From: Bryobacterales bacterium
GTDB lineage: Bacteria > Acidobacteriota > Terriglobia > Bryobacterales > Bryobacteraceae
Length of the DNA: 21,909 nucleotides
Direction: 5' to 3'
Assembly: GCA_003132905.1 (NCBI GenBank)
Contig: PKZC01000063.1
Span: forward strand, 48,369 to 70,277
Shown here: positions 1,593-20,114 of the stretch, piece by piece
Numbering within the stretch: the first letter of the stretch is position 1
How the letters are laid out: each line of letters starts with the position of its first letter
Notes under the pieces: model-generated
Told to the model about the DNA's origin: nothing
Seen by the model: only the letters and a program-made list of their open reading frames with translations
Database searches by the model: none
Made by a program: the position numbers and the translations under genes

Positions 1593-2468
1593 TTATTCCA
1601 CTGGCGCCAGGTCAACCCCAACATGGACCGCATGATCGCGGCCCCCGAGAATAACGCCGCGAACCGGGCTGACGTCGCCATAATCGCGGCCCCACGCCAG
1701 CGTGACGTGGCTTTGGGACGGAACCACATTATTGGTTGGATCTACATCCAGCCAGCCCGCGCCCGGGCAAAAGACCGAAACCCAAGCGTGCGACGCGTCG
1801 GCCCCTACTAAACGCGGCTTGCCGGGAGGCGGATAGGTGCGCAAATAACCGCTGACGTATCGCGCCGGAAGCTGCAGCGACCGCAAGCACGCGATTTGTA
1901 GCTGCGCGAAATCCTGGCAGACTCCTCTGCGTTTGCGGAGCACTTCTTCCGGCGGCGTTCTTACGTTGGTGGCTTCGTGATCGAAGTGAAACTCGCGATG
2001 GATGCGCGCGGTGAGGTCCAAAACGGCTTCGGCAAGCGGCCGGCCGCTTGGAAAAGAAGGCGCGGCATAGATGGCGAACTCATGGCTTGGCCGGATCCGC
2101 GTTGATTCAAAAACGAACTGGTACGCTTCGATGGTGACAGGATCGTGTTCCTTACGGAGCACGGCTGCAACTTCCTCCCACGGCATGGAGCGGTCGGGCC
2201 AAGGGGCGGCTTCGCCGTCCAGCTCCAATACACTACTGGCGTTGATCTCGAGAATGTCATGCGGCTCTTCAATGGTGAACAGAGTAATTCGATTTCCAAA
2301 AAAATCGTCCCGCTCGCTTAGTGTGGCCGGCGCGGGTTGAATGCGTAAATCGTGTGAGAGGCAGCGATGATGTGGCCGCGATCGAGGCGTAAGATGCACG
2401 GCATGATTTCCGAAAGAAACCGGCTGTTTGTACTTATAAGTTGTGACGTGCTGCACGCGGTAGATCAT
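1593..2468 (-). CDS. Transglutaminase-like cysteine protease/amidase family protein
   Basis: A 291-residue protein with an N-terminal bacterial transglutaminase beta-sandwich domain (about residues 1-90, opening MIYRVQHVTTYKY) and a C-terminal transglutaminase-like papain-fold core. The catalytic triad is visible as Cys184 (RGVCQDFAQL), His227 (DASHAWVSV) and Asp243 (DVDPTN). No signal peptide or membrane segment is seen, so it is probably cytoplasmic. In bacteria this family more often acts as a peptidase or amidase than as a protein cross-linker. The start codon overlaps the stop of the upstream ATP-grasp/alpha-E gene by four bases (ATGA), which indicates translational coupling and a shared pathway. 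Family assignment is firm; the substrate is unknown. Confidence 0.93.
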   Translation of the reverse strand: MIYRVQHVTTYKYKQPVSFGNHAVHLTPRSRPHHRCLSHDLRIQPAPATLSERDDFFGNRITLFTIEEPHDILEINASSVLELDGEAAPWPDRSMPWEEVAAVLRKEHDPVTIEAYQFVFESTRIRPSHEFAIYAAPSFPSGRPLAEAVLDLTARIHREFHFDHEATNVRTPPEEVLRKRRGVCQDFAQLQIACLRSLQLPARYVSGYLRTYPPPGKPRLVGADASHAWVSVFCPGAGWLDVDPTNNVVPSQSHVTLAWGRDYGDVSPVRGVILGGRDHAVHVGVDLAPVE

Positions 2469-4966
2469 AGATCGATCTGTATCGGCAGCGTGCGGGCATG
2501 GCCGAAGTAAGTATTGGAAACATTGTCGGCCCAGGAGGGCAGCAATTCTTCAATGAAACCAAGGGCCTGATCCAGTTTCAACTGCGTTTTTGAGTCGCCC
2601 TGCGACTGATTCGATTGACTCGAGGCCTCCAGCGGGTAACTTACATTTCGAAGATCGAGACTGCGCAGTAGATCCAGGGAATGCCGGATGGCGCTCAGAT
2701 CCTCGGGAGCGTAGCGCGGCAGTTTCCCGTATAAATCCGCCAGATGGCTCAACTGAAATTCGAGCGACCGGGGATTGGTGCCGTCCGCCATCAACGTATC
2801 CAACACCGCTACGGGCTGCAGCGTGGTGTAGTAGCGCGAACGGTAAGTCATGGAGCTGTCGGCAACCTCGAGCAGATATTCCAATAGCGGCCAACTGTCG
2901 GTAGTGAACGGGGCAGTGATCATGCGAAGCTCAGCCACCGAATACATGGCGCGTTCAAGACGCCGCCCGATGCCTAGAAAGAGCCAGCCCGGTCCGCGCG
3001 TAATGTTTTCGCGCTCCATTCCCGAGATTGCCGAAAGCAACTCCAGACAGCCGCTCAACACGGCCGTATGCTCGGCAAACAACATATATTCTTCCGTTCG
3101 CGCAGATTCCGATGCCTGAGTAATCAGGCGCGAAAAGTCGGCAGAGAGCCGGTCACGAACATTTCCGCCGACACGCTGCAGTTCGGCCAGAGTGGACACC
3201 AGACTATCCGCGCGCTTTAGATCGGACATTACCGAGATCAGCTCGTCTTCCAGTTCGCGCGCCGTTGGCCTGCGATCCTCCGGCAGGATCGAAGCCTTGG
3301 AATGGAGACATTCGTGCAGCCGAAGCAGACAGGTAAGTTCCGGTCCGTTTGACCGGCGCACGCGGGACAGCATGCAGCGCAGCAGCCGGGCGATGCACTC
3401 GGCGCGCTCGGCATAGCGGCCCAGCCAGAATAAATTATCCGCCACCCGGCTTGGCAGATCGGTGGGCGTGCGATGTAATTCCACCGGCTGGCTGCGAGGG
3501 CGCAGCATGCTGTAGGTGTCTACCGGCTGATCCCATAAGATCCAGGCATCCTTGCTGTGGCCGCCGCGCTGCATGGAAACCACGGACCCTTCGGCGCCCG
3601 CCACGCGCACCAGACCGCCGGGCATGGCTATCCAACCCGACGCCGTGTTCAGCACATAGGTGCGCAATACAAGACTGCGCGAATAAAGCCGGCCGCGATC
3701 CCAAATCGGCGCGGTGGACAGCGCCACCTGCTCCTGCGCCACATACTCCCAGGGACGCGCGCGTACACGGTCGATAATTTTCTGCTTCTCCGCTTTTGCA
3801 AGCTCCGCGCCAAAGATGGGCTCCATCGCGCGGGCTGGAAACGCGGGCTTCACCACCACCTGGTTCAGATGCTCCAGCACCCATTTGAGCGCGGGTTCCT
3901 GGCCGCACCACCAAGTTGCAACGGAGGGTAATTTCAACGGCTCGCCCAGAAGCTTGATGGACAAGCCGGGCAGAAACGGCATGATGGCGGCGGTTTCAAT
4001 TACACCGCTTCCGAGTGAGTTTGCAATCGCGACGTTGCCGGCTACGATAGCATCCACCAGGCCGGCGACGCCCAAAAATGAATCGCCCCGCAGCTCCAAG
4101 GGATCGCAGAAGCCGCCATCCACGCGGCGCAAAATCACATCCACGCGCAGCAATCCTTCCACTGTTTTGAGAAAGACTTTGCGGTCTCGAACGGTCAGGT
4201 CCGCGCCTTCCACCAGCGGAAAACCCAGGTAGCGCGCCAAGTAGGAATGTTCGAAATACGTTTCGTTGTACGGTCCGGGCGTCAACAGTACGATATGTGG
4301 ATTATCCGAACGCGCCAGGTTCATCAGCGAATCGCGGCGCGCGCGGAAGAACGGCGCCAGGCGTCGAACGTTGGATTCCGCAAAGACGTCGGGCAGAACG
4401 TCTGAAACGATAGTGCGATTCTCGAGCGCGTAGCCGGTTCCGGACGGGGCCTGCGTTCTATCCGCCAACACCCACCATTGCCCATCCGGCGAGCGCGCCA
4501 GATCGACGGCGACCAATTGCAGCGTGGAACGCGGGTCAACGGGGATGCCCACCAGGGGCCTGAGAAACGAGGGGTTGGCAAACAGAAGAGCAGCGGGCAA
4601 ATCTCCGTTTGCGATCAGGCGTCGCGGGCCGTAGATATCTTCGAGCAGAGTTTTCAACAGCTGCGCGCGCTGTATGATGCCGGCCTCGATGTAACGCCAT
4701 TCGCTGGCTGGAATGAGAAACGGTACCGGATCGAGAGCCCAGGGACGATTGGCGCCCTGCGGATCGGTGTAGATGTTATAGGTGACGCCGTTTTCCCGAA
4801 TGCGCCGTTCGGCCCGCTGCCAGCGGCGCGCTAGTTCATCGGAATCGATGGCCTGCAGCGACTGAAGAAACGGAGCCCAGTGCGCCCGTGGCGTTACACC
4901 GTCGCTTGCCAGTTCGTTATACACCGACGAATCGGCTAAGGGGATTTGCAACAGGTCCACGATCAT
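2465..4966 (-). CDS. Circularly permuted ATP-grasp / alpha-E domain fusion protein
   Basis: An 833-residue fusion. Residues about 60-480 match the circularly permuted ATP-grasp family (COG2308-like), with hallmarks such as GVTYNIYTDPQG, RPWALDPVPF, EWRYIEAGIIQRAQ, LENRTI and LTPGPYNETYFEHSYLAR. Residues about 505-820 match the all-helical alpha-E domain (COG2307-like), opening SRVADNLFWLGRYAERAE. ATP-grasp enzymes form amide or peptide bonds through an acyl-phosphate; alpha-E has no established chemistry. In many genomes the two parts are separate adjacent genes, so the fusion supports a joint role. The gene lies 30 bases after the transglutaminase-DUF2126 gene and overlaps the next transglutaminase by four bases. 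It is expected to be the ligase of this operon; the product is unknown. Confidence 0.92.
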   Translation of the reverse strand: MIVDLLQIPLADSSVYNELASDGVTPRAHWAPFLQSLQAIDSDELARRWQRAERRIRENGVTYNIYTDPQGANRPWALDPVPFLIPASEWRYIEAGIIQRAQLLKTLLEDIYGPRRLIANGDLPAALLFANPSFLRPLVGIPVDPRSTLQLVAVDLARSPDGQWWVLADRTQAPSGTGYALENRTIVSDVLPDVFAESNVRRLAPFFRARRDSLMNLARSDNPHIVLLTPGPYNETYFEHSYLARYLGFPLVEGADLTVRDRKVFLKTVEGLLRVDVILRRVDGGFCDPLELRGDSFLGVAGLVDAIVAGNVAIANSLGSGVIETAAIMPFLPGLSIKLLGEPLKLPSVATWWCGQEPALKWVLEHLNQVVVKPAFPARAMEPIFGAELAKAEKQKIIDRVRARPWEYVAQEQVALSTAPIWDRGRLYSRSLVLRTYVLNTASGWIAMPGGLVRVAGAEGSVVSMQRGGHSKDAWILWDQPVDTYSMLRPRSQPVELHRTPTDLPSRVADNLFWLGRYAERAECIARLLRCMLSRVRRSNGPELTCLLRLHECLHSKASILPEDRRPTARELEDELISVMSDLKRADSLVSTLAELQRVGGNVRDRLSADFSRLITQASESARTEEYMLFAEHTAVLSGCLELLSAISGMERENITRGPGWLFLGIGRRLERAMYSVAELRMITAPFTTDSWPLLEYLLEVADSSMTYRSRYYTTLQPVAVLDTLMADGTNPRSLEFQLSHLADLYGKLPRYAPEDLSAIRHSLDLLRSLDLRNVSYPLEASSQSNQSQGDSKTQLKLDQALGFIEELLPSWADNVSNTYFGHARTLPIQIDL

Positions 4967-4996
4967 TGGTGGCCAAACCGAACGAGGATTCGTCCC

Positions 4997-7900
4997 CTAC
5001 GTTGGATTCCTCCAGCGTAGATCGAGCGTAAGCGGAAAGTCGGGATTGGTTTCCTGGGGCGGCAAACTCATTGGACCTGGTGTGTGACCCATGGCGCGGA
5101 ACCTGGACAGCCTGCGACTCTCGGCCTCATTGGCGTTGACGGGAAACTGCTCGTTGCTACGGCCGCCTGGATGAGCCACGTAATAAGTGCATCCGCCGAC
5201 TGCGCTCTCAGACCATGTATCCAAAATATCAAACACCAGCGGGGTGTGGACCGGGATGGTGGGGTGCAGGCAGGAGGGCGGCTGCCAGGCGCGATAGCGA
5301 ACGCCCGCTACAAATTCGCCGCGCGTGCCGGTGGGATGCAGCGGCACCTGGCGGCCATTGCACAGCACGGCGTATCGCGAGTCAATCAAGCCTGACACTT
5401 TCACCTGCATCCGTTCCACTGACGAATCGACGTTGCGCACCGTGGCGCTGCCGGAAGTCTCTTCGCCCAAAACGTTCCAGGGCTCGAGCGCATGGCGCAG
5501 TTCCAAATGAACGCCTCGGCTGGTGATGCTGCCAATGGTAGGAAAGCGGAATTCGAAGTGTGCCGCAAACCATTCCCGCTCAAATGGATAGCCCGCCGCG
5601 CGCAGATGGTCCAGCACGTCGTCGAAATCCAGCTCCACGAAATGCGGAAGCATGAAGCGATCGTGCAGACTGGTGCCCCACTTCATGAGTTTCTGCTTCC
5701 AGGGTTGCCGCCAGAATGTAGCGAGCAGAGCGCGAACCAGGAGTTGCTGTGTGAGGCTCATCCGGCTATGCGGAGGCATCTCGAATCCGCGCATCTCTAC
5801 GAGGCCAAGCCGCAACGACGACGTATCCGCTGGATAGAGTTTGTCGATACATAACTCGGTTCGATGGGTGTTACCAGTCATGTCCGCCAGCAAGTGGCGG
5901 AATATGCGATCCACCAGCCAGGGCGGAACGATCGGCCCGCCGGCCGGGGGAACCTGATCCAAGGCGATCTGCAGTTCGTATAGCGCGTCTGTGCGGGCTT
6001 CATCGATGCGCGGATGCTGGCTGGTGGGTCCGATGAACAATCCCGAGAATAGATACGAAAGAGAGGGGTGATTCTGCCAGTATCCGATCATGCTAGCGAG
6101 CATATCCGGACGGCGCAGGAACGGACTATCTTCGGGTGTGGGTCCGCCCACCACGATATGATTGCCGCCTCCGGTGCCCGCGTGCCGGCCATCCAACATG
6201 AATTTTTCGGTGCCCAGGCGGCTGAGGCGGGCGAGATCATAGAGGACCGTAGTGTTCGTAACCAGTTCATCCCAAGACCGCGCCGGTTGTACGTTGACTT
6301 CGATTACGCCTGGGTCGGGCGTAACCTTCAAAACTGAAAGCCGGGGGTCGAATGGGGGTGTGTAGCCCTCGATGGCCACGGGCATTTTCAGGTGTGCCGC
6401 TGTGTCCTCGATCGCCGCGACCAGAGCCAGGTAGTCTGACACGTACTCGACCGGCGGCATGAATACGAATAGCTTTCCCTCGCGAGCCTGAACGCAGAGC
6501 GCGGGACGCAACACTGGCTTGGCGGATTCCCCTTTTTCGGGCGGCTTCGCTTTATCGGCTTCCGGTACTGGTGCGTCCTCGGTTGGCGGCGTATCGAAAA
6601 GAAAACGCTTGCGTTCGGGCTTGGATGGAAGATCCTCGCGGACACCGAATGGATCGGGATCGAAGTCCCATAGCGCATCTTCGGGCTTCGTCCAGGGCAG
6701 TGAACTAAGCGGCAGACGATAGCCCATGGCGGAATCGCCAGGAACCAAAAACATTTGGGGGGTCGGCAAGAACCAAGGCTGGCTGGTCCAGCGGGGCATT
6801 CCCGCTCTGGTAGGTACCCGGCGCAGCGGCAAAACGAAGCCAATGATCTCTCCCAATCCCTGCTCAAACACGCGCGCGAGTTCGGCTCGCTCGATCGGTG
6901 ATGCAAGCTTGGAATCGAGCGGGTCGACGTTGACCGGTAGGCGCCCTTCCTTCCACAGATAGTAAAAGACGTCCTCGTACGCCGTCATAATAAACGACGA
7001 ACTTACCTGAAGCCGGTGAGTGAGGGTTTCCATGAAGCGGCGAGCATCGGCCGCCTGATAGCCGTAATTGGCCGTCTCATCGGCGATGAGCTTGGGATCT
7101 TCCCAAATGGGCACGCCGTCTTTGCGCCAATAACAACCGAGCGCCCAGCGCGGCAGCGGCTCACCGGGGTACCATTTTCCCTGCCCAAAATGCAGCAGAG
7201 CATTGCGGGCAAAGCGGTCGCGCAATTTCAAAAGCAGATCGACCGCAAGTTTTCGCTTCTCGGGGCCAAGCGCGCTGGAAGTCCATTCCGGACCGTCGGG
7301 ATCGTCGACCGACACAAAAGTTGGTTCGCCGCCCATGGTGAGCCGGACGTCTTGCACGACTAAATCCGACTCCACCTTTTGGCCCAGAGCCTGGATCTGA
7401 TCCCATCGATCCTCTGTATAGGGCTTGGTGACCCGCGGCGCTTCGAAAATACGCCGCAGCGTCATTTCGTGGCTGAATTCGGTATTACAGGAGTCGAGCA
7501 CGCCCGAAATAGGGGCGGCGCTGCTCGCATCCGGAGTGCAGGCGAGGGGAATATGTCCTTCACCGGCGAGAATGCCAGAGGTGGGATCGAGACCGATCCA
7601 CCCGGCGCCGGGAAGGTAAACCTCTGTCCAGGCGTGCAGATCCGTGAAATCGGCAGTCGGACCCGATGGTCCTTCGAGCGGCTTCACATCGGCGGTTAGC
7701 TGGATCAGGTATCCGGAGGCGAAGCGGGCCGCCAAGCCCAGGTGGCGCAGCACCTGAACCAATAGCCAAGCCGAATCACGGCACGATCCTGTGCGCGCGG
7801 TGAGCGTATATTCGCAGGACTGCACACCCGGATCCATCCGGATGACATAGCCAATCTCACGGCAGACCCGCTGATTGAGCCCCACCAGGAAATCGATGGT

Positions 7901-8320
7901 GCGGACGCTGGTCTTCGGAACCGTACGCAGAAACTCACTCAATTCCGGGCCGGGAGGCTCAGTTTCCAAGAAAGGCCGAAGCTCGCGCGCCGTGGCTTCG
8001 TCATAACAAAACGGGTAGTTCTCGGCCCAGGGCTCCAGGAAGAAATCGAAAGGATTGAAGACCGCGAGCGCGGCCACCAGATCCACTTCCACGGAAAATT
8101 CGGTGGTGGGCTCCGGGAAAATCAGGCGCGCCAGGTAATTGGCCTGTGGATCTTGCTGCCAATTCAGGAAGTGATTTGCGGGATGGACCTTGAGCGAATA
8201 AGAAAGAATGGGCGTGCGGCAGTGCGGCGCAGGTCGAAGCCGCAGGATTTGCGGCCCGAGATTGATCCTGCGGTCATATCGGTAACGTGTCTTGTGATTC
8301 AGTGCTACGTGAATGGCCAT
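4997..8320 (-). CDS. Large transglutaminase-DUF2126 fusion protein
   Basis: An 1107-residue two-part protein. The N-terminus (about 1-95) is a bacterial transglutaminase beta-sandwich domain. A transglutaminase core follows with Cys180 (RTGSCRDSAWL), His229 (TDLHAWTEVYLPGAG) and Asp245 (IGLDPTSG), so the triad is intact. From about residue 325 the rest is DUF2126 (COG4196-like), with strongly conserved patches LTMGGEPTFVSVDDPDG, FGQGKWYPGEPLPRW and GRHAGTGGGNHIVVGG. As I recall, DUF2126 has been proposed to be a glutamine-synthetase/GCS-fold amide ligase; the Gly-rich and acidic patches fit but do not prove it. A Pro/Lys/Glu-rich linker lies at about residues 575-605. Length and domain order are typical of the family. 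It is second in the operon. Start ATG 8320 precedes the first beta strand directly. Confidence 0.93.
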   Translation of the reverse strand: MAIHVALNHKTRYRYDRRINLGPQILRLRPAPHCRTPILSYSLKVHPANHFLNWQQDPQANYLARLIFPEPTTEFSVEVDLVAALAVFNPFDFFLEPWAENYPFCYDEATARELRPFLETEPPGPELSEFLRTVPKTSVRTIDFLVGLNQRVCREIGYVIRMDPGVQSCEYTLTARTGSCRDSAWLLVQVLRHLGLAARFASGYLIQLTADVKPLEGPSGPTADFTDLHAWTEVYLPGAGWIGLDPTSGILAGEGHIPLACTPDASSAAPISGVLDSCNTEFSHEMTLRRIFEAPRVTKPYTEDRWDQIQALGQKVESDLVVQDVRLTMGGEPTFVSVDDPDGPEWTSSALGPEKRKLAVDLLLKLRDRFARNALLHFGQGKWYPGEPLPRWALGCYWRKDGVPIWEDPKLIADETANYGYQAADARRFMETLTHRLQVSSSFIMTAYEDVFYYLWKEGRLPVNVDPLDSKLASPIERAELARVFEQGLGEIIGFVLPLRRVPTRAGMPRWTSQPWFLPTPQMFLVPGDSAMGYRLPLSSLPWTKPEDALWDFDPDPFGVREDLPSKPERKRFLFDTPPTEDAPVPEADKAKPPEKGESAKPVLRPALCVQAREGKLFVFMPPVEYVSDYLALVAAIEDTAAHLKMPVAIEGYTPPFDPRLSVLKVTPDPGVIEVNVQPARSWDELVTNTTVLYDLARLSRLGTEKFMLDGRHAGTGGGNHIVVGGPTPEDSPFLRRPDMLASMIGYWQNHPSLSYLFSGLFIGPTSQHPRIDEARTDALYELQIALDQVPPAGGPIVPPWLVDRIFRHLLADMTGNTHRTELCIDKLYPADTSSLRLGLVEMRGFEMPPHSRMSLTQQLLVRALLATFWRQPWKQKLMKWGTSLHDRFMLPHFVELDFDDVLDHLRAAGYPFEREWFAAHFEFRFPTIGSITSRGVHLELRHALEPWNVLGEETSGSATVRNVDSSVERMQVKVSGLIDSRYAVLCNGRQVPLHPTGTRGEFVAGVRYRAWQPPSCLHPTIPVHTPLVFDILDTWSESAVGGCTYYVAHPGGRSNEQFPVNANEAESRRLSRFRAMGHTPGPMSLPPQETNPDFPLTLDLRWRNPT

Positions 8321-8428
8321 CAGCGCTAAATTCGATCTGGCTCAGACGAGGAGGGGACAGATAGCGTAGTTTAGCATGCCCGCCCTACTCAGCGGCCTTT
8401 CAGCACGTCTTCTATTGGCCGTCCGCCA

Positions 8429-9304
8429 TCACGACGCTGATGCCGGCTGCGGATTTTTCATTAGCGGGCAATCGGCATTCTCTTGCACTTCGGCGTTCTC
8501 TTGCACCTCATCGGTGACCACGGTGAACTTCTTCAGCCACGAACTTCCGAACGAAGTGGTGATCGCAACGTCGGCGGCATCGCGGCCCGTCGCCATGAGT
8601 ACCCGGCCGATACGGGGATGATTGTGGCGCGCGTCGAAAGTCCACCATTTGCCACCCAGGTAAGCCTCAAACCAGGCGCTGAAGTCCATCGGAGAGGGCG
8701 ACACGGGGACACCGATATCGCCAAGATAACCGGTGGCATACCGAGCGGGGATGTGCATGGCGCGGCACAGCGTGATGGCCAGATGCTGGAAGTCGCGGCA
8801 GACGCCCTGCCGTTCCACGGAAACGTCCAGCGCCGTCTTCGTGGGCCGAGCGAACTGGTAGCCAAACGTCACGTTGCTATGCACCCACTCACAGATGGCC
8901 CGAACGGTTGGCCAGCCCGGCGCGGCGTTGCCGAACAATTGCCAAGCGAGATCGGACAAGCGATCTACTTCGCAGTATCTGCTGGCAAGCAAAAATTGCA
9001 TTGTGTCGGTAGGAAGGCGCTCCACGGGGATCTGCTCGGCGCTGAAATCCGTGGGATCGGGCTTACCGCTATCGCGAATGAGACATGAGTTCCAAAGTCG
9101 CAGCGTGCCCTGCGGCGCGCGGACCCGGGTGCAACGGTTGCCGAAGGTATCCATGTATTCGTCGCGCATGACGCCTTCGGAAAGCAAAAGCTCATCCGGT
9201 TCAATCAGATCAGACCAGCGCGACGGATGAACGTTGAGGACGGCCACCACAGTCATGGGGCGGGAAAGTTCGAGTTCGATATCGTAGCCAAGACGGATTA
9301 ACAT
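8429..9304 (-). CDS. Transglutaminase-like protein, catalytic His replaced by Ser
   Basis: A 291-residue transglutaminase-like protein and the first gene of the minus-strand operon. Its N-terminal beta domain differs from the other two (MLIRLGYDIELEL opening). The core shows Cys169 (RQGVCRDFQHLA) and Asp224 (WTFDARHN), but the position that is His in H-A-W of the two neighbours is Ser209 (MDFSAWFEAYL). Spacing Cys to Ser to Asp (40 and 15) matches the neighbours (43-49 and 16), so this is a true substitution and not a misalignment. Two histidines follow Asp224 (RHNH). I cannot tell from one sequence whether Ser is normal for this subfamily. A duplicated EVQENA peptide lies near the C-terminus. 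The gap to the next gene is 108 bases; no clear Shine-Dalgarno is seen. Confidence 0.9.
   Translation of the reverse strand: MLIRLGYDIELELSRPMTVVAVLNVHPSRWSDLIEPDELLLSEGVMRDEYMDTFGNRCTRVRAPQGTLRLWNSCLIRDSGKPDPTDFSAEQIPVERLPTDTMQFLLASRYCEVDRLSDLAWQLFGNAAPGWPTVRAICEWVHSNVTFGYQFARPTKTALDVSVERQGVCRDFQHLAITLCRAMHIPARYATGYLGDIGVPVSPSPMDFSAWFEAYLGGKWWTFDARHNHPRIGRVLMATGRDAADVAITTSFGSSWLKKFTVVTDEVQENAEVQENADCPLMKNPQPASAS
8473..8508 (-). repeat. Two tandem 18-bp units inside the transglutaminase 3' end
   Basis: Two adjacent 18-base units differ at two positions and encode EVQENA twice in the poorly conserved C-terminal tail. The length is a multiple of three, so the frame is kept. This looks like a slippage duplication. 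Confidence 0.85.
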
Positions 9305-9377: not shown

Positions 9378-9403
9378 ATTACTCGCAGATTACCGCAAGT
9401 AAT
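9378..9403. promoter_or_regulatory. Dyad symmetric element upstream of the transglutaminase operon
   Basis: Arms ATTACTCGC and GCAAGTAAT are inverted repeats of nine bases with one mismatch, separated by eight bases. The centre lies about 85 bases upstream of the ATG at 9304. This is a plausible operator for the operon, but no matching regulator gene is in the window. Confidence 0.35.
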
Positions 9404-9445
9404 GGGCCACAGCCAAGATGAGTTCCGGAAGTTATGATGCGAGAC

Positions 9446-9489
9446 ATTTGGTCGGCGGGGAGATTCGAACTCCGGACGTCCTGGTCCAG
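9446..9489 (-). repeat. Degenerate 3' fragment of tRNA-Pro (left att-like repeat)
   Basis: These 44 bases match the 3' part of the intact tRNA-Pro gene (17094-17139) in the same orientation. Shared are the CCA end with three further flanking bases, the T-arm (AGATTCGAACTCCGGAC on the plus strand) and part of the anticodon arm (TCCTGGTCC). Two bases of the acceptor stem are missing, one variable-region base differs, and similarity stops after about 9489, so this cannot be a working tRNA. It sits where the left-over 3' end is expected after integration into the tRNA gene. Confidence 0.75.
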
Positions 9490-9744: not shown

Positions 9745-11646
9745 TGCAGCGTTCCTAAGCTCGGCATCGTCGTTTTGCCCATCTCAGATGTCTTCCGCGC
9801 AGTTCGAGGCTAAGGCCTGGAGCAATCCGTAAGGCGTTCATACAATGGCTGCGAGGCGCCGAAACGGAACTGGACCGCACCATCATTGAGGCCATTAAAG
9901 ATCCGCTGGTCCACCTGGTTCGAAACTCCTGCGACCACGGCATCGAGGAGCCCGCGGCCCGCGCTCGCGCAGGCAAGCCTCCAGAGGGCCGGCTGACTCT
10001 TCGCGCCTATCACGAAGGCGGCCAGGTCAACATCGAAATCGGCGATGACGGCGGCGGGATCGACGTCGCGCGAGTTAAGCAAAAGGCGATCGAGAAAGGG
10101 CTCCTGCGTCCCGAACAAGTCGAAAAGCTGAGCGATCGCGAGGTGCTGCACCTGATTTTCAAACCGGGGCTCTCGACCGCCGAAACCGTGACCAACCTAT
10201 CGGGCCGCGGGGTGGGCATGGACGTCGTGAAATCCCACATTGAGAAGATCGGTGGTGTGGTCGACGTGTTCAGTCGGCCCGGCGAAGGCACCACCGTCAA
10301 GATCAAGATTCCGCTGACGCTCGCCATCATACCGGGCCTAGTAATCACGAGCGGCGGCGAACGGTTCGTGATTCCCCAGGTCGGCCTGCTCGAGCTCCTT
10401 CGCCTGGAAGGGGATTCGTCGGATAAACGCATCGAGTATGTGCAGGGTACGCCGGTATATCGCCGGCGCGGAAGCCTCTTACCCATTGCCTACCTCAATC
10501 AAGTGCTGGGGCTGAAACCGGCCGGCCAAGCCGAGGCGGTCAGCATCGTAGTCCTGCAAGCGGAAGACCGGCAATTCGGCCTGGTTGTCGACGGTATCAA
10601 CGACACTCAGGAAATTGTGGTCAAGCCTTTAGGCAAGCAGTTGAAGGGACTCTCCTTCTACGCCGGTGCGACGATCATGGGCGATGGCCGCGTGGCCCTG
10701 ATCCTCGATGTGCTCGGTATTGGCCAGCGCTCCGGGGTGTTGGGAGAAGGTCAGGAGCAGGCGCGGGCGGCGGGCGAACAGAAGACGCGATCGGAGACCG
10801 AGCTTCAAAGGCTGCTCCTTTTCCGGACCGGTTCCTTCGAGCGGCTGGCCGTTCCGTTATCTCTGGTGGCCAGGCTCGAGGAGTTCCCGCAATCGGCCAT
10901 CGAGCATGCGGGCGGGGGGCAGGTGGTCCAATACCGCAATCGGATCCTCCCGCTGGTCTCATTGCGGGCCGTTCTCGAACCGGGCGCGCCGGACCCGGAG
11001 CAGGCGCCCGATCCCGTGCAGGTGGTTGTTTTCAACGATGGCGACCACAAGTGTGGGTATTGTAGTCGACCAGATCCTGGATGTGGCCGAAGAGGCGGTG
11101 ACCGTGCGGAAGAAGTCCAACCGCAAAGGTCTCCTCGGCGAGGCCGTGGTGGGCAAGCGAGTCACGGATTTCATGGATCTCAACTATGTGATTCACTCGA
11201 CCACTGAGAATTGGTTTCAGGGAACGGGACGCGCGAACAACAAGAGCATTCTGGTCGCCGAAGCCTCGGCGTTTTCCCGCAGCCTGATCCGGAGCGGCCT
11301 GGACATGGCCGGTTACCACGTCTTTGAAGCTGCAAATTTGGGGGAAGCGGTTCGAGTCTTGGAGCAGAACCCAGTGGACGTGGTGGTTGCGGCGCTGGAT
11401 CTTCCGCCCGGAGGAACCTCCGCCCTGCTAGCGGCTATGCGCCGGCGGCCGGAGTGGGAGAAAATTCCGGTCCTGGCACTGGTCGATTCGGCCGAAGAAG
11501 TTCAGGCAACAGACTTTCCGAAACGCGGGCTCCAGGACTGCCAGGCGAAATTCGACGGAGCCGCCATGCTCGAATCCGTGGCCCGGCTGGCTTCCGCGCT
11601 GGCGTCCACGGAGGCTGAGCCGGTTTATGCGGGACCGGAGAAATAA
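9745..11646 (+). pseudogene. cheA: CheA-type hybrid histidine kinase, 5'-truncated and frameshifted
   Basis: Remnant of a chemotaxis histidine kinase that would phosphorylate the CheY and CheB encoded downstream. Recognisable parts in order are: a dimerisation-domain tail (LPISDVF at about 9775), the ATPase domain with N box (HLVRNSCDHGIE, about 9915-9950), G1 (IGDDGGGID) and G2 (SGRGVGMDVV, about 10200), a first CheW-like domain (about 10290-10710), a second (about 10800-11215), and a receiver domain (about 11245-11640). The Hpt domain with the phosphorylated His is missing. One frame change lies near 9810. A second lies near 11052, where one extra base (or two missing) separates VVFNDGDHK from VGIVVDQILDV. 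The receiver is degenerate: the acidic pair is AE and the phosphoacceptor Asp is Ala (VAALDLPPGG). The start coordinate is approximate. Confidence 0.85.
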
Positions 11647-12234: not shown

Positions 12235-14223
12235 ATGGAAAAACGATCCAACACCGGCCAGCGAGTTCTGTCCGGCCGAAATCCGTCCAAAGGCGCCGCA
12301 GTCCTGGACCGTCCAATAGATGAGCGGACCAAGCAAGTGAACGATTTGCTTCAGGAGGAAATACTCCGGCTCGTGGACGCATCGCGCGAAGGCCGGCTGA
12401 GCGAGCGTGGAAGGGTGGAACGGTTCGAAGGGAGCGACCGCAAACTAATTGAGGGCGTCAACCAGATGCTCGATGCGATCCTGCTGCCGATCGGCGAAGG
12501 CAATCGTATCCTGGCGCAGATCAGCACGGGAAAGATCGACGAGCAGATCGTGCAAACCTACAAAGGCGACCACGAAAAGATGAAGCTGGCGGTTAACAAC
12601 GTCGCGGTGGTGCTGCAAGCGCTTCAGAAGGAATTGGGCCGGCTGACCGAGGCATCGCGCGAAGGCTTGCTGAACGAGCGCGGCAAAGCGGAGCAGTTTC
12701 AGGGCGCGTACGCGGGCATCGTAAAGGGCGTCAACGAAATGCTGGACGCCATCCTGCTACCGATTGGGGAAGGCAACCGCATTCTGGCCCAAATCTCCAA
12801 CGGCAAAATCGATGAGCAGATCGCGCAAACCTACAAAGGCGACCACGAAAAGATGAAGCTGGCGGTTAACAACGTCGCCATGGTGCTGCAAGCGCTTCAG
12901 AAAGAGTTAGGAAAGCTAACCGAGGCATCGCGCGAAGGCCTGCTGACCGAGCGCGGCAAACCGGAGCAATTTCAGGGCGTGTACGCGGGCATCGTAAAGG
13001 GCGTCAACGAAATGCTGGACGCCATCCTGCTGCCGATTGGGGAAGGCAACCGCATTCTGGCACTGGTCTGGGGAGGCAACCTTCGCGAGAAGGTGGAGAT
13101 CGCCTGCAAAGGCGACCACGAGAAGATGAAACTGGCCGTAAACGGCGTTCATGACTGGCTCAGCGATCTCATTGCCTACGTCACGAAGATCGCCAACGGC
13201 GATATGACAGCATCGGCCGCCAAAGCCTCCGATAAGGACCAGATTCACGAGTGGCTGGTGCTGTTGAAAAATAGCATTAACGCGCTCGTGGTCGACACCG
13301 GCCTGCTGGCCCAGGCGGCCGCGGATGGCCGGGTGGGCGTACGGGCCGACGGCGCGAAACACCAGGGTGCTTACCGTGCCATCGTCGAGGGCGTCAACTA
13401 GACACTCGAGGCGGTAGTCCAGCCATTGAAGGTCACGGCCCAAAACGCGACGGCGCTGGCCGCCGCCTCCGAAGAGCTAACCGCAGTTAGCCAGCAGATG
13501 GCGGGCAATGCCGAGGAGACCGCGACGCAGGCCAATGTTGTGTCGGCGGCAAGCGAAGAGGTCTCAAAGAACGTGGCCTCGGTCGCATCCGCCTCCGAGG
13601 AGATGCAGGCCTCGATCCGGGAGATCGCCAAGAACGTGAACGAGTCGGCCCGGGTAGCTAAGAATGCCGTCAGCGCGGCGCACTTGACCAATGAAACGGT
13701 GAAAAAGTTGGGCGAGTCCAGCCAGGAGATTGGCAATGTGGTCAAGGTGATTACTTCGATCGCGCAGCAGACCAACCTGCTGGCGCTGAACGCAACCATC
13801 GAGGCGGCCCGCGCGGGTGAAGCAGGCAAGGGCTTTGCGGTGGTGGCGAACGAGGTGAAGGAACTCGCCAAGCAGACTGCCAAGGCCACCGAGGAGATCG
13901 GCCAGAAGATCGAGGCCATTCAGGGAGACGCCAAAGGGGCCGTCAAGGCGATTGAAGAGATCGGCACCATCATCAACCAGATCAACGACATCTCCAACAG
14001 CATCGCCTCGGCGGTCGAGGAACAGACCGTCACTACCAACGAAATCGGCCGCAGCGTGACCGAAGCTTCGCAGGGGGTCAATGACATCGCTAAGAACATC
14101 GGCGGAGTGGCCGTCGCCGCGAAGAATACTACCCAAGGCGCCAACGATACGCAGAAGGCATCGCAGGAGTTGAGCCAGATGGCGGCCCGCCTCCAAGCAG
14201 TCGTTTCCAAGTTCACGTTCTGA
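12235..14223 (+). pseudogene. Soluble poly-HAMP methyl-accepting chemotaxis protein interrupted by in-frame TAG
   Basis: A cytoplasmic receptor with no signal peptide or transmembrane segment. Residues about 45-345 consist of tandem HAMP-like units (three of 91 residues plus a diverged further part), each with L-x-E-A-S-R-E-G-x-L and LDAILLPIGEGNRILA. The C-terminal signalling domain has the CheA/CheW-binding tip [19 protein letters not shown] (about 13767-13823) and a coiled coil on each side. A TAG at 13399-13401 splits it between VEGVN and [11 protein letters not shown] in the same frame on both sides, so a single base change such as CAG to TAG explains it. The upstream part alone would be 388 residues without a signalling domain. 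The start has a strong Shine-Dalgarno (AAAAGGAGAAAG). The downstream part could only be made by readthrough or internal initiation. Confidence 0.88.
12370..13188 (+). repeat. Three tandem 273-bp units encoding HAMP-like modules
   Basis: Units begin at 12370, 12643 and 12916 with exact 273-base (91-residue) spacing. Units 1 and 2 encode nearly the same protein through the whole period, and the start of unit 3 is also nearly identical. Unit 3 diverges after NRILAL but regains KGDHEKMKLAV. High similarity at the DNA level indicates recent duplication or gene conversion. Confidence 0.9.
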
Positions 14224-14674: not shown

Positions 14675-15773
14675 ATGGCCGCGCTGAACAAGCGGTTGCT
14701 CCACCCAGGGGAACGGATACGCGTGCTCGTGGTGGACGATTCGGTGGTTATCCGCCGCCTGGTCACTCATGCCCTGGAGGAGGATCCTGAACTCGAGGTG
14801 GTGGGGGCGGCGGCAAACGGCTTAATCGCACTCCAACGGATCCCACAGTTGAGCCCTGAAGTCCTCACGCTGGACATCGAGATGCCGGAGATGGATGGTC
14901 TCGAGACGCTGCGTCGGGTTCGGCGCGAGTTTGCCCACTTGCGGGTCATCATGTTCAGTACTCTGACGGAGCGCGGCGCGGCGATTACTTTGGAGGCCTT
15001 GACGCTGGGGGCTGACGACTACGTAGCAAAAGCCTCGAACGCGGGTTCGCTCGATCGTTCGATGGCCCGCTTACGGGAAGATCTTATCCCGAAGATCAAA
15101 CAATTCTTCCACCAGCCGGGACAAACCCCCGTCGTGGCTCGGCTTGTACCGGCGTACGTCCCTACGCGCTTATCGAACCTAAAGGTGCGGGCCCCAAGTA
15201 GTTGTGATCGGCGTGTCCACGGGAGGGCCGAACGCACTGGGCGCGATTCTGCCGGCCCTGCCCGCCTGGTTCCCATTGCCAATCCTTCTGGTGCAGCACA
15301 TGCCACCTTTATTTACCCGTTTTCTTGCCGAGCGGCTCAACTCCACCTGCCGGCTGCCCGTCGCCGAGGCGGCCCAGGACGACGCCGTCGAGCCGGGCAA
15401 GATCCTGATTGCGCCCGGAGATTTCCATTTGAAGGTCGCCACGAGCGGCCATAAAGTGCGAGTGTGTCTCGATCAGGCGCCGCAGCAGAATTCCTGCCGT
15501 CCCGCCGTCGATGCGCTGTTCACTTCGATCGCTGAGGTGTATGGAGGCGCGGCAATCGCCATCATTCTGACCGGCATGGGGCAGGATGGCTTGCGGGGCG
15601 CGGAAATTCTAAAGGCGCGCGGGGCTAGCGTTATCGCGCAGGATGAGGCTTCGAGCGTCGTTTGGGGAATGCCCGGCGCCGTCGTGAAGGCAGGTGTCGC
15701 AGACCGCGTGCTGCCCCTCGACCAAGTGGTGCCGGAGGTTCTGCGCATTGCGGACGGTCCTAAGGAGCACTGA
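14675..15773 (+). pseudogene. cheB: CheB protein-glutamate methylesterase with a frameshift between domains
   Basis: CheB removes methyl groups from receptors and deamidates glutamines. The N-terminal receiver is complete: Asp21/Asp22, phosphoacceptor Asp67 (LTLDIEMPEMDG), Lys119 (YVAKA). The methylesterase domain is also complete but lies one frame further on: GVSTGGP carries the nucleophile Ser, VQHMPPLF the His and TGMGQDG the Asp. The frame changes at about 15190-15197 in a G/C run, between VRAP and QVVVIGVSTGG, by one extra or two missing bases. As read, the first part ends at 15454 in nonsense. An independent methylesterase fragment could start from an internal codon near 15204. The stop at 15773 abuts the cheR start. 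Confidence 0.87.
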
Positions 15774-17093: not shown

Positions 17094-17139
17094 ATTTGGT
17101 CGGGGCGCGGAGATTCGAACTCCGGACCTCCTGGTCCCG
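17094..17139 (-). repeat. Right att-like repeat within tRNA-Pro 3' end
   Basis: This is the intact counterpart of the fragment at 9446-9489. It covers three flanking bases, the CCA end, acceptor 3' strand, T-arm and part of the anticodon arm of tRNA-Pro. The two copies are direct repeats about 7.65 kb apart and enclose the chemotaxis cluster. Confidence 0.7.
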
Positions 17140-17173
17140 AACCAGGCGCTCTACCAGGCTGAGCCACGCCCCG
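17097..17173 (-). tRNA. tRNA-Pro (anticodon CGG)
   Basis: A 77-base cloverleaf with encoded CCA. The acceptor stem CGGGGCG pairs with CGCCCCG with A73. The D-arm contains GGCTCAGCCTGGTAGAGC, the anticodon stem CCTGG/CCAGG encloses loop TTCGGGA (anticodon CGG), and the T-arm is CGGAG-TTCGAAT-CTCCG. The C1-G72 pair is typical of tRNA-Pro. It is complete and likely functional, with its own upstream extended -10 element. Confidence 0.96.
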
Positions 17174-17601: not shown

Positions 17602-18717
17602 TCAGAACTTATTCAGCTCAGCGATGAGCGCCTTCATACCTTTCTTGCGATAGATTTGCGCCAGGCGCTGCTCTTCGTCAGAAGGCGCGATAACGCGCTG
17701 CAATTGCGGAGCATCCAAATCGGCGCGAGTGGGAATCCATAGCGAGCCATCGGCAAATTCGACGCTGCTCACAAATCCCGTCATACCCTCGATGCCCAGC
17801 GGCTGACCGCCCAGGTGCGGAAACTTCAGTGTAGTTTCCCCTAGGATCTGGCTTTTCTGGCCGGGCGCAAGATTCAACTCAGCAGGAACGGAGCCGGCCA
17901 GAAACTCGCGGCCGGAGCGATCCTGTAGGATCCAGCCGACTTCGAGGTAGCGGATGGCGCGTTCCGAGCGGTTCTTTACTTCCAGGCGGGGAGCACGCGC
18001 TTCATTGCCCGAAATGCGCGCCATGCCACCCATGGGTTCGATGGGCGAATCCGGCAGGCTCAAGAAGGCGAACTGTACCTGCTTCTCAGGCTCAAAGTTG
18101 GTGGCGCGCGCGCCACGAACCACTTCCACGTCCAGGCTGGGCCGATCGGCTTGATGAGTCAAGCTCTCGAGCATTTCCTGCCGCAACTTCTCTTGGCCGC
18201 CCGAGGCCAAAACGGACTTAAAATAGCGCCGGTCGCGCCGCGCTTCCCATTCCGAGAGCGTCAAAGTGCGGCGGGAACTCAGCTTGTCGGGGCCGTAGAA
18301 GCTCAAATCGTCGAACAGCACACCGTCCAGGCCAATCTGGACCGGAACGCCGGACGAGGCTTGCAAGGGCCGCAGCAAGCGCAAATCGATTCGAACGGGA
18401 AATGTTTCTTGAGGCCCGACATCCAGGCTGGTGACGGTCACCGAACCTTTGCCTCCGGGCGTTACGTCTTGCGCTGTGACCAGCAGCGTGATGCCGCGGA
18501 TCTTACGCTGGCTGGAATTTCGCAATGACAGAGCAGCGTGGACATCCAGCAGCATGGCGCTGCCGCGCGGCATTTCATTGGACTCGCCATAGTCGGCCGA
18601 GAGCAGGACCACCGGCGAATCGGCAGGCAGATCGATTTTGGGAAGCGCGGCCGCGAACACGCCGTTGTAGGGAATGAGAAAAAGCGCGGACGCAATCAGC
18701 GCGCTACTGCTCCGCAT
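17602..18717 (-). CDS. Secreted protein of unknown function
   Basis: A 371-residue protein that I do not assign to a named family. Residues 1-23 are a Sec signal peptide (MRSSSALIASALFLIPYNGVFAA). Two stretches resemble beta-sandwich repeats describing bonded strands (SLRNSSQRKIRGITLLVTAQD at about 66-86, in part, and LEVKNRSERAIRYLEVGWIL in the second half), which suggests two related domains. The C-terminus is charged and helical (EEQRLAQIYRKKGMKALIAEL). The start overlaps the end of the anti-sigma gene by 14 bases, so it belongs to the sigma operon. It may be part of an envelope response controlled by the sigma factor; this is inferred from position only. Confidence 0.8.
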   Translation of the reverse strand: MRSSSALIASALFLIPYNGVFAAALPKIDLPADSPVVLLSADYGESNEMPRGSAMLLDVHAALSLRNSSQRKIRGITLLVTAQDVTPGGKGSVTVTSLDVGPQETFPVRIDLRLLRPLQASSGVPVQIGLDGVLFDDLSFYGPDKLSSRRTLTLSEWEARRDRRYFKSVLASGGQEKLRQEMLESLTHQADRPSLDVEVVRGARATNFEPEKQVQFAFLSLPDSPIEPMGGMARISGNEARAPRLEVKNRSERAIRYLEVGWILQDRSGREFLAGSVPAELNLAPGQKSQILGETTLKFPHLGGQPLGIEGMTGFVSSVEFADGSLWIPTRADLDAPQLQRVIAPSDEEQRLAQIYRKKGMKALIAELNKF

Positions 18718-19360
18718 AATACACCTTGTTGGTAGTCACTTGGCCCGTATCGGCATCTACGAAACGGACGCCCGCCGAGCCGTGCATACTCACCGAAACC
18801 GTGGCTCCATCCGAATGGGGAATCAGGGACATGGCGCGGCCGTTTTCGCGAACCTGGATGCTGGACGAAGACGCCTCTAAGATGACCTCTTCGGGGGAGC
18901 CGGCAGCGGCGGTAGCGGAATGCACCAAAGTTCCGAGGCGTTCGGTGCGAATGCGATTGAGGGACGTCAACAGATGCTCGGCTTGCTGCGGCGGAAGACT
19001 GGACCAAAATGCGATGGCGAAAATCACGGTGGCGCCAGCAATCACCATCCCGGCGTGCCAACCAAGGCGAGGCTTGGTGCGTAAGGGCTTGTCGAAGAGA
19101 GCGATGGCTTCACCGGCCGCCAGACCGACGCGGATGTTTCCGGTCATTTCGTCGGCGAGACGGTTCCAATTCAAAGCGTTGGGCAGTTCGGCCATCTCGC
19201 CAGCGAGTTCGCGAAGTTGGCCGGATGCGTCCCGCAGAGCTTGAACCTCTTGCCGGCATTGGGAGCAGTGCCGAACGTGCCGTGACACGCGCCAGCGTTC
19301 CCAGCGGCTGAGATCGCCGCCAGAAAACAGAGCGAGTTGTGCGGGGCCAGGGTGAATCAC
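18704..19360 (-). CDS. Zinc-finger anti-sigma factor, membrane anchored
   Basis: A 218-residue protein with an N-terminal putative zinc-binding anti-sigma domain: His28-x3-Cys32-x2-Cys35 (RHVRHCSQC). A single transmembrane helix follows at about 101-119 (HAGMVIAGATVIFAIAFW). Residues about 120-218 would lie outside the cytoplasm and probably sense the signal. It should bind and hold the ECF sigma factor encoded just upstream; the two genes overlap by four bases (ATGA), the classical arrangement. Release would require proteolysis or a conformational change, but no protease gene is adjacent. Family assignment is firm; the signal is unknown. Confidence 0.9.
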   Translation of the reverse strand: MIHPGPAQLALFSGGDLSRWERWRVSRHVRHCSQCRQEVQALRDASGQLRELAGEMAELPNALNWNRLADEMTGNIRVGLAAGEAIALFDKPLRTKPRLGWHAGMVIAGATVIFAIAFWSSLPPQQAEHLLTSLNRIRTERLGTLVHSATAAAGSPEEVILEASSSSIQVRENGRAMSLIPHSDGATVSVSMHGSAGVRFVDADTGQVTTNKVYYAEQ

Positions 19361-19932
19361 GACAGTTTCCTTGGATTGGACGCGCGACGGCTGCGCTGCA
19401 TGTAGCGCTTCATCTTAATGCGAGCATTGGCGATATGCGATCGCACCGTGGCCTTGGAACAGCCCATTTGCTCTGCCACCAGTTCGGCGGGCAAATCTTC
19501 GACATCGCGGAGCAGCAGAGCGGTTCGTTCCCGTTCGGTGAGCACTGCCAAGCCGTCTTCCAGATAGGCGCGATGCTCTGAGCGCAGGACAGCCTGTTCG
19601 GGGCTGGGCGAAGGCTCACTAAGGGGTTCCACTAAGCTATCGATTTCGCAGAAGTTGACCTTGCCGTTACGCCGCAGAAAATCGATGGCTGTGTTGCTGG
19701 CGATGCGGGAGAGCCAGTGCGCCGCCTTGTCCAACTCTTTGAGCTGATCCTGACGCTGCAGGGCCTTAATGAAGGCTTCCTGGGTGAGGTCCTGCGCATC
19801 GTCGACATTTCGGACAATCCGGTAAATGAGCAGGAACACTCGCCGTAAGTTGTCGGTAATAAAGCGATTTTGAAGTTCCTGGGCAGCGAGCTGGGATGCG
19901 TCGAGGGCGGCGGGCGGTACGCGGTCGCTCAT
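19357..19932 (-). CDS. ECF-type RNA polymerase sigma factor
   Basis: A 191-residue group 4 sigma-70 factor. Region 2 covers VFLLIYRIVRNVDDAQDLTQ-EAFIKAL and HWLSRIASNTAIDFLRR; region 4 covers LTERERTALLLRDVEDLPAE and the recognition helix CSKATVRSHIANARIKMKRY. Regions 1.1 and 3 are absent, as expected. The frame stays open to an ATG at 20028, but the start at 19932 (MSDRVPPAAL) is preferred. It has a GAGG five bases upstream, the extra residues have no family similarity, and a likely promoter at 20003-20011 would lie inside the longer version. It heads an operon with its anti-sigma factor and two secreted proteins and probably also controls itself, which the sequence does not prove. Confidence 0.9.
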   Translation of the reverse strand: MSDRVPPAALDASQLAAQELQNRFITDNLRRVFLLIYRIVRNVDDAQDLTQEAFIKALQRQDQLKELDKAAHWLSRIASNTAIDFLRRNGKVNFCEIDSLVEPLSEPSPSPEQAVLRSEHRAYLEDGLAVLTERERTALLLRDVEDLPAELVAEQMGCSKATVRSHIANARIKMKRYMQRSRRASNPRKLS

Positions 19933-19966
19933 GGATGCCTCATTCCCGATGAATGCCTCATCCCTG
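19931..19966 (-). repeat. Tandem 18-bp units containing the sigma gene ribosome-binding site
   Basis: Two adjacent 18-base units, plus a shorter third (to about 19978), carry ATGAGGCAT on the minus strand. The unit next to the start codon supplies the GAGG used for initiation at 19932, so the leader holds a duplicated Shine-Dalgarno/ATG module. Confidence 0.6.
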
Positions 19967-20002
19967 ATGAATCCCGCGATAGTGCCAAGTGCGGACGCCA
20001 TG

Positions 20003-20011
20003 CCTATAACA
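20003..20011 (-). promoter_or_regulatory. Extended -10 promoter for the sigma operon
   Basis: TGTTATAGG (TG-n-TATAGG) lies 70 bases upstream of the chosen sigma start and predicts a leader of about 64 bases that includes the 18-bp repeats. No good -35 is visible. Confidence 0.4.
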
Positions 20012-20114
20012 GGCTGACGTGAGAACAACCCAAACGTGCAAGGTTATTCGGGGCACTGGGAACTGATCGGCTCCTTCCTAATAATTGTATACGGGGAGGG
20101 GACGGGGAAGGATA

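Follow-up and report, generated by a model that had tools for sequence, protein, structure and literature searches.

What does a bacterial operon do that sets two predicted amide-forming ligases beside three transglutaminase-fold proteins? The question is raised by a 21,909-nucleotide stretch of a Bryobacterales genome (assembly GCA_003132905.1, contig PKZC01000063.1, positions 48,369 to 70,277; hereafter the window), whose minus strand carries, in the order of transcription, a lone transglutaminase-fold protein (TG3), a transglutaminase (TG2) fused to DUF2126, a circularly permuted ATP-grasp fused to Alpha-E, and a further transglutaminase (TG1). The initial annotation, made from the sequence alone, had proposed that the two ligases build amide bonds and that the transglutaminases cleave or transfer them. 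The operon is a member of a known, unexplained system; its DUF2126 part has a predicted glutamine synthetase/glutamylcysteine synthetase (GS/GCS)-like fold, TG1 and TG2 keep their catalytic triads, and TG3, a third transglutaminase from a widespread branch in which the catalytic His is almost always missing, is an addition to that system.

Domains and layout of the operon

Profile searches upheld the four-gene, same-strand set with the domains first assigned to it, PF14403, PF04168, PF09899 and PF01841 all scoring above their Pfam cut-offs. The circularly permuted ATP-grasp (PF14403, E 9.3e-148, 492.6 bits against a cut-off of 32) and Alpha-E (PF04168, E 5.3e-55, 187.7 bits against 20.8) are confirmed, DUF2126 (PF09899, named "Putative amidoligase enzyme" in Pfam) scored 1311.5 bits, and PF01841 was matched three times (E 3.2e-20, 3.7e-16 and 6.8e-19). 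PF08379 (Bact_transglu_N) was found on TG1 and TG2 only; TG3 matches PF01841 and, below the cut-off, PF04473. None of the four proteins had a match in NCBIfam. Gaps of 108 nt (TG3/DUF2126) and 30 nt (DUF2126/ATP-grasp) separate the first three genes, and the expected ATGA coupling is present, the stop codon of ATP-grasp/Alpha-E overlapping the start of TG1 (2468-2465; Table 1). Between positions 1400 and 10200 neither promoter-like (3 against 3.2 in shuffles) nor terminator-like patterns (7 against 9.0) were in excess. A role in anti-phage defence was dropped, no PADLOC model matching any of the four proteins at E 0.01.

Table 1 Features of the operon and of the region ahead of it (window positions)
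Feature	Position	Strand	Description	Basis
TG3	8429..9304	-	Lone transglutaminase-fold protein, 291 aa; Cys169 and Asp224 kept, Ser209 at the catalytic His position	
TG2-DUF2126	4997..8320	-	Fusion, 1107 aa; N-terminal transglutaminase, triad Cys180-His229-Asp245; DUF2126 at residues 276-1102	Pfam, triad counts, AF2/structure comparison
ATP-grasp/Alpha-E	2465..4966	-	Fusion, 833 aa; circularly permuted ATP-grasp (PF14403, residues 82-456), Alpha-E (PF04168, residues 504-821)	Pfam, 3n6x match, invariant residues
TG1	1593..2468	-	Transglutaminase with N-terminal domain, 291 aa; triad Cys184-His227-Asp243	PF08379 and PF01841, triad counts
ATGA start-stop overlap	2465..2468	-	ATP-grasp/Alpha-E stop with TG1 start	Sequence
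Weak sigma-54-like match	9394..9409	-	9/12 positions, ~105 nt ahead of the TG3 start	Not supported as functional

The ATP-grasp part matches the solved structure 3n6x, deposited as a putative glutathionylspermidine synthase, at E 7.1e-84 (E 5.7e-183 by profile), and its residues invariant among 43 sequences include Glu239, Arg280, Asp288 and Asn316. For the DUF2126 part, an AlphaFold2 (AF2) model of 832 residues and structure comparison predict a GS/GCS-like fold with extra regions; the comparison with GCS folds suggested at the outset thus favours the fold, while the Mg/ATP- and amine-binding residues could not be mapped singly. The presence of two ligase modules is thereby supported, in the case of ATP-grasp also by a relative from the Anbu operon of Yersinia bercovieri, which releases phosphate from ATP (PMC6376114).

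In TG1 and TG2 the triads are intact: Cys, His and Asp are found in 208, 209 and 204 of 209 TG1 sequences and in 206, 207 and 203 of 207 TG2 sequences, the two sets overlapping. Cleavage or transfer by the transglutaminases is therefore supported for these two only, the catalytic His of TG3 being gone.

The third transglutaminase lacks the catalytic His

TG3 has the motif DFSAW where relatives have DFHAY or DLHAW. At the His position its 120 closest proteins carry Ser (115) or Asn (5) and never His, although such top-120 lists are closest hits and give no estimate of frequencies. A larger set of 331 rows, in which rows sharing the same middle stretch were collapsed, was divided by eye at 44.5% identity to the window TG3, giving a clade of 196 rows at or above this limit; with the truncated L140 left out, the 195 readable rows show Ser in 157, Ala in 31, Asn in 6 and His in 1 (His absent in 194/195). 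Cys169, His174, Asp224 and two Arg residues specific to the branch, Arg226 and Arg234, are present in all 195. Among the 135 rows outside the clade, residue 209 is His in 134 and Gln in 1, and Thr (128) and Tyr (120) replace the two Arg.

The single His-bearing clade member, L194, ended the notion that TG3 never has His. A search seeded with it returned 120 rows with Ser in 113, His in 6 and a gap in 1, the catalytic His being absent from 113/119 readable neighbours; Cys and Asp were kept in 120/120, Arg226 in 119 and Arg234 in 120. In trees the His-poor rows, L194 included, form one group (99/97), with the His-bearing members at its base or scattered within it; the His/non-His state changes twice on two trees and three times on the L194-seeded tree, the trait column having been left in, and the position of L194 is weakly supported (90/59) in a bootstrap that had not settled. 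The branch turned up in searches of the Acidobacterial class, Pseudomonadota and Planctomycetota.

In transglutaminase folds, Cys usually stands at the start of a helix, and His and Asp on or after strands. The TG3 model (predicted local distance difference test, pLDDT, 92.7) conforms to this layout: Cys169 opens helix 169-182, residue 209 lies in strand 208-216 and Asp224 just past strand 219-223. The nearest solved structure, 3isr, a putative cysteine protease of Cytophaga hutchinsonii, has His in the alignment where TG3 has Ser. The fold and the nucleophilic Cys are present and the catalytic His is absent. Three papain-fold cores had been counted in the operon; the three PF01841 matches agree with that number, but three active cores cannot be inferred from it, because the His is missing from TG3 itself and from almost every clade row. 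The strict retention of Cys and Asp without a base suggests, as far as sequences go, binding or covalent holding and not decay, and since the nucleophile and Asp are kept while the general base is lost, TG3 is most likely non-hydrolytic. Inactive transglutaminase domains are on record (PMC3482391). Searches of open-licence papers gave, among the matches listed, no recognised report of a His-less transglutaminase beside this operon.

Because migration of the catalytic His is documented within the superfamily, in Phytophthora GP42 and Atg4b (PMC10318531), residual activity of TG3 stays a rival: the part of the lost His might have passed to a different residue, such as His174, which stands five positions beyond the Cys, and TG3 would then still be a working enzyme. 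The invariance of Cys169, His174 and Asp224 in the clade accords with this, and the strictly retained Cys argues against plain decay. However, relatives with His209 in place have His174 just as invariably (135/135), so that it is no clade-specific replacement, and His26, the first candidate base, was dropped after counts of 41/42 and 193/196 gave way to only 61/120 in a further search. We consider a catalytically competent TG3 unlikely, though with an appreciable chance of being correct.

Conservation of the gene set and the membership of TG3

DUF2126 relatives were found at no fewer than 595 loci, of which the best 80 (L001-L080) were taken; the nearest, L001 (an Acidobacteriia metagenome-assembled genome, MAG) and L002 (a Bryobacterales MAG), are both 74% identical. 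In 74/80 loci DUF2126 is followed on its own strand by the fused ATP-grasp/Alpha-E and by TG1, with ATP-grasp at most 250 nt from DUF2126 in 69/80, so the recurrence of this neighbourhood in bacteria, stated in the initial annotation, holds beyond chance. Of the six exceptions, L015, L036 and L058 end at a contig edge, L032 has the pair on the opposite strand, and in L003 and L047 the flanks examined do not contain it. Some loci have an unfused ATP-grasp ahead of DUF2126, followed by an Alpha-E gene in all three that were scanned (L002, L018, L080). A DUF2126 subtype with the family match broken at profile positions ~175-212 was seen in loci L152, L153 and L155 and in six genomes of the class surveyed next (G094, G118, G142, G190, G194 and G200).

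Among 200 genomes from the same class as L001, 37 have DUF2126, 80 have Alpha-E and 35 have a match to TG3 at E 1e-20 or better; three of these 35 (G064, G076 and G154, matching at 39%, 39% and 32% identity) may hold His-type relatives. DUF2126 and Alpha-E were also detected in Synechococcus elongatus, which served as a control. Alpha-E is present in 37/37 DUF2126 genomes (Fisher 3e-18) and in 34/35 TG3 genomes (Fisher 4e-15), and DUF2126 in 20/35 TG3 genomes (Fisher 7e-9), figures that overstate independence, the genomes of the class being related and some incomplete.

These counts bear on whether TG3 belongs to the system at all or stands 108 nt upstream in the window by accident. Separateness would be in keeping with the lack of DUF2126 in 15/35 TG3 genomes, with the missing PF08379 and with the upstream regions of TG3, which as a class show no enrichment of sigma-54-like sites (6/74 against 6.1%). 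It would also agree with the distance between the genes, TG3 lying at most 10 kb from DUF2126 in only 5/20 class genomes that hold both (G001, G118, G185, G190, G194), a count from which contig breaks can hide links and which also weighs against the joint function proposed below. Against it stand the near-constant company of Alpha-E, albeit in related genomes, and three arrangements: in L002 TG3 is divergent, head to head, from ATP-grasp/Alpha-E/TG/DUF2126 genes; in L157 it faces in the same way an operon in which ATP-grasp, Alpha-E and TG accompany a proteasome-family protein (PF00227, taken as Anbu); and in L080 a His-bearing TG3 relative adjoins ATP-grasp and Alpha-E. A transglutaminase or TG-DUF2126 adjoins TG3 on the same strand in 17/75 clade loci versus 2/16 other relatives, most loci having a flank of ~1.5 kb and the 17/75 overlooking frames that overlap heavily, as in L001; in 19 loci chosen for having a partner transglutaminase, the partner carries HAW in 19/19 and the strict Cys motif in 14. 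An accidental neighbour is in our judgement rather improbable. Directly downstream of the proteasome-family/ATP-grasp/Alpha-E/TG row of L157 (13818-17000) lies a protein kinase/AAA/TPR protein.

Nitrogen control in relatives

A sigma-54-like -24/-12 pattern (at least 9/12 positions, GG and GC required) lies 35-75 nt ahead of TG-DUF2126 in 52/67 Pseudomonadota loci against 107/6660 equal-size random stretches (1.6%), a range that was set after a first scan (a site no further than 400 nt away in 60/80 loci, against 12.9% in the control) with no separate test set. All 39 Pseudomonas loci have the site, compared with 13/28 other Pseudomonadota (9/17 by named genus). Where an unfused ATP-grasp precedes DUF2126, a site of 10 or 11/12 stands before its approximate start in Burkholderia (L079), Ideonella (L028), Dechloromonas (L035) and Pedosphaera (L009), and L047 has a 12/12 site before a separate ATP-grasp.

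Under nitrogen limitation, mutation of ntrC in Burkholderia cenocepacia lowers the expression of the cluster I35_5080-5083, described as DUF404/407, DUF403, transglutaminase and large transglutaminase protein, by log2 8.2, 9.4, 9.4 and 6.0 (PMC5491218); from the like gene order in L079, the large protein is probably TG-DUF2126. Both PMC5666114 and PMC6376114 cite Anbu as being induced when nitrogen is limiting or the cells are starved of it, the former naming nitrogen limitation in P. putida, and these domains were associated with urea-metabolism domains in marine metagenomes (PMC3597751). For the window operon itself, sigma-54 control is not supported: pattern matches across the window (54) do not exceed the chance mean (60), none lies before DUF2126, and a single 9/12 match stands ~105 nt before TG3.

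Proposed function

We tentatively propose, with confidence a little short of even, that the operon is a module making and breaking peptide-like amide bonds, with TG3 as a non-hydrolytic partner and a nitrogen-related role. The ATP-grasp and the GS-like DUF2126 would each use ATP to activate a carboxylate for coupling to an amine. Alpha-E, as part of the ATP-grasp fusion, may serve as a scaffold or hold the substrate. The amide bonds would be hydrolysed or transferred by TG2, which is fused to one of the ligases, and by TG1, whose translation is coupled to that of the other, and TG3 may bind the same substrate or hold it at Cys169 as partner to an intact transglutaminase. Since the module is under nitrogen control in some relatives, its likely role would be nitrogen storage, salvage or protein tagging under nitrogen limitation, which for the lineage of the window is carried over from relatives only. 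The initial annotation knew of no defined product for the gene set, and none was found here either.

Alternatively, the module could be degradative or regulatory, removing tags or deamidating near Anbu-like peptidases, with ligases that merely recycle or cap the products. Relatives do combine these genes with the proteasome-like Anbu (PMC5666114; L157), and control by nitrogen shortage would suit nitrogen release. However, PF00227, the Anbu family, had no match among the 16 open reading frames (ORFs) scanned in the window, and two ATP-dependent ligase modules would be costly for a purely degradative device; we hold this explanation to be fairly doubtful. Somewhat less probable still is a reading in which TG3, as a member of an old and widespread branch, would not cut but would take up at Cys169, as a thioester, the acyl group activated by ATP-grasp or DUF2126. 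It would then pass this group on, either to an amine or to an intact transglutaminase partner, and so act as a carrier in a non-ribosomal assembly line for amides that is controlled by nitrogen.

Several results weigh against the proposed module. On the side of the ligases, Foldseek with the DUF2126 model gave no match at E 0.001 or better, and the VIA-align comparison re-examines Foldseek's own list and is not independent of it. Alignment of DUF2126 with E. coli YbdK and GlnA by hhalign returned nothing, and proof of the GS fold at the sequence level was given up, there being also no credible PDB match and no other Pfam family at E up to 10. The polar residues invariant across 74 DUF2126 sequences (among them Glu57, Glu376, Glu399, Asn401, His438, His446, Arg496, Glu567, Arg569 and Glu572), which might be GS-like ligands, say little because the alignment is shallow (Neff 2.4). 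As regards nitrogen control, no sigma-54-like site stands before DUF2126 in Azospirillum (0/6), Niveispirillum (0/2), Achromobacter, Azoarcus, Burkholderia, Ideonella, Roseomonas or Sphaerotilus, nor upstream of the unfused ATP-grasp of L002, L018, L073, L080 and L157. In Acidobacteriota the counts before DUF2126 are 0/3 loci and 0/28 further loci (from the class search and the L001 and L002 genomes, with some repeats); because of this, and because the TG3 upstream regions show no enrichment, the nitrogen-control evidence concerns the system in relatives and not the window. Finally, neither a specific interaction among the operon proteins of Y. bercovieri nor a complex of these with Anbu could be detected (PMC6376114), and expression of the Anbu operon is reported to be unchanged under various conditions (PMC5666114).

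That DUF2126 is only an inactive GS-fold scaffold, as its undetectable sequence similarity to GlnA or YbdK might suggest, is very unlikely in view of its many invariant polar residues, shallow though their alignment is.

Neighbouring features of the window

Upstream of the operon, on the plus strand, a CheA-like gene (~9800-11646) lacks its N-terminal part and has its later part in another frame, through decay, rearrangement or assembly error. A chemoreceptor (12235-14223, plus strand) has its HAMP and signalling parts as separate ORFs in one frame, split by a stop, and CheB (14675-15773, plus strand) has its receiver and methylesterase parts in two frames. Between TG3 and the truncated cheA, a minus-strand stretch resembling a tRNA 3' end (~9449-9486) has 19 bases in common with the tRNA-Pro at 17097-17173; neither ARAGORN nor Rfam called a tRNA there, and it may mark an integration or rearrangement boundary. 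Further minus-strand genes encode a 371-aa protein without a Pfam match (17602-18717), a protein with a sub-threshold match to the zinc-finger family PF13490 (18704-19360) and an ORF resembling a sigma factor by eye (19357-20028).

Comparison with known systems

The ATP-grasp/Alpha-E/transglutaminase/DUF2126 amidoligase neighbourhood was reportedly described by Iyer et al. in 2009 (Mol Biosyst). The window has the same domain families, and the circularly permuted ATP-grasp, Alpha-E and Cys-His-Asp transglutaminase, taken as its defining features, are all present; the window differs by a third, His-less transglutaminase, first in the row. The ATP-grasp/Alpha-E/DUF2126 set is recurrent in bacteria, with no assigned product found.

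Circularly permuted ATP-grasp, Alpha-E and transglutaminase are also common to the window and the Anbu operon (PMC5666114, PMC6376114), whose Anbu in Y. bercovieri showed no peptidase activity (PMC6376114); in the window, by contrast, ATP-grasp and Alpha-E are fused, DUF2126 is present and no Anbu match was found among the 16 ORFs scanned. The rlo operon of Pseudomonas aeruginosa pairs the ATP-grasp protein RloC with RloB, in which an inactive transglutaminase is carried by seven membrane helices (PMC12239564). This genetic linkage of an inactive transglutaminase to an ATP-grasp protein is a precedent for the logic of TG3, although RloB is a membrane protein, whereas TG3 matches PF01841 and keeps Cys and Asp. 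With glutamine synthetase and YbdK-type ligases DUF2126 has the predicted fold in common, but no sequence similarity was detected and DUF2126 has extra regions.

Three things are thus added to the known system: structural support for the second ligase, a third transglutaminase from a widespread His-less branch, and a hint on regulation by which the product could be looked for. Taken with the NtrC dependence on record, the sigma-54-like element ahead of the first gene in many Pseudomonadota loci suggests under which growth condition common laboratory bacteria could be searched for it, and the His-less TG3 branch, which parallels RloB, indicates that a transglutaminase beside these ligases is not automatically a peptidase.
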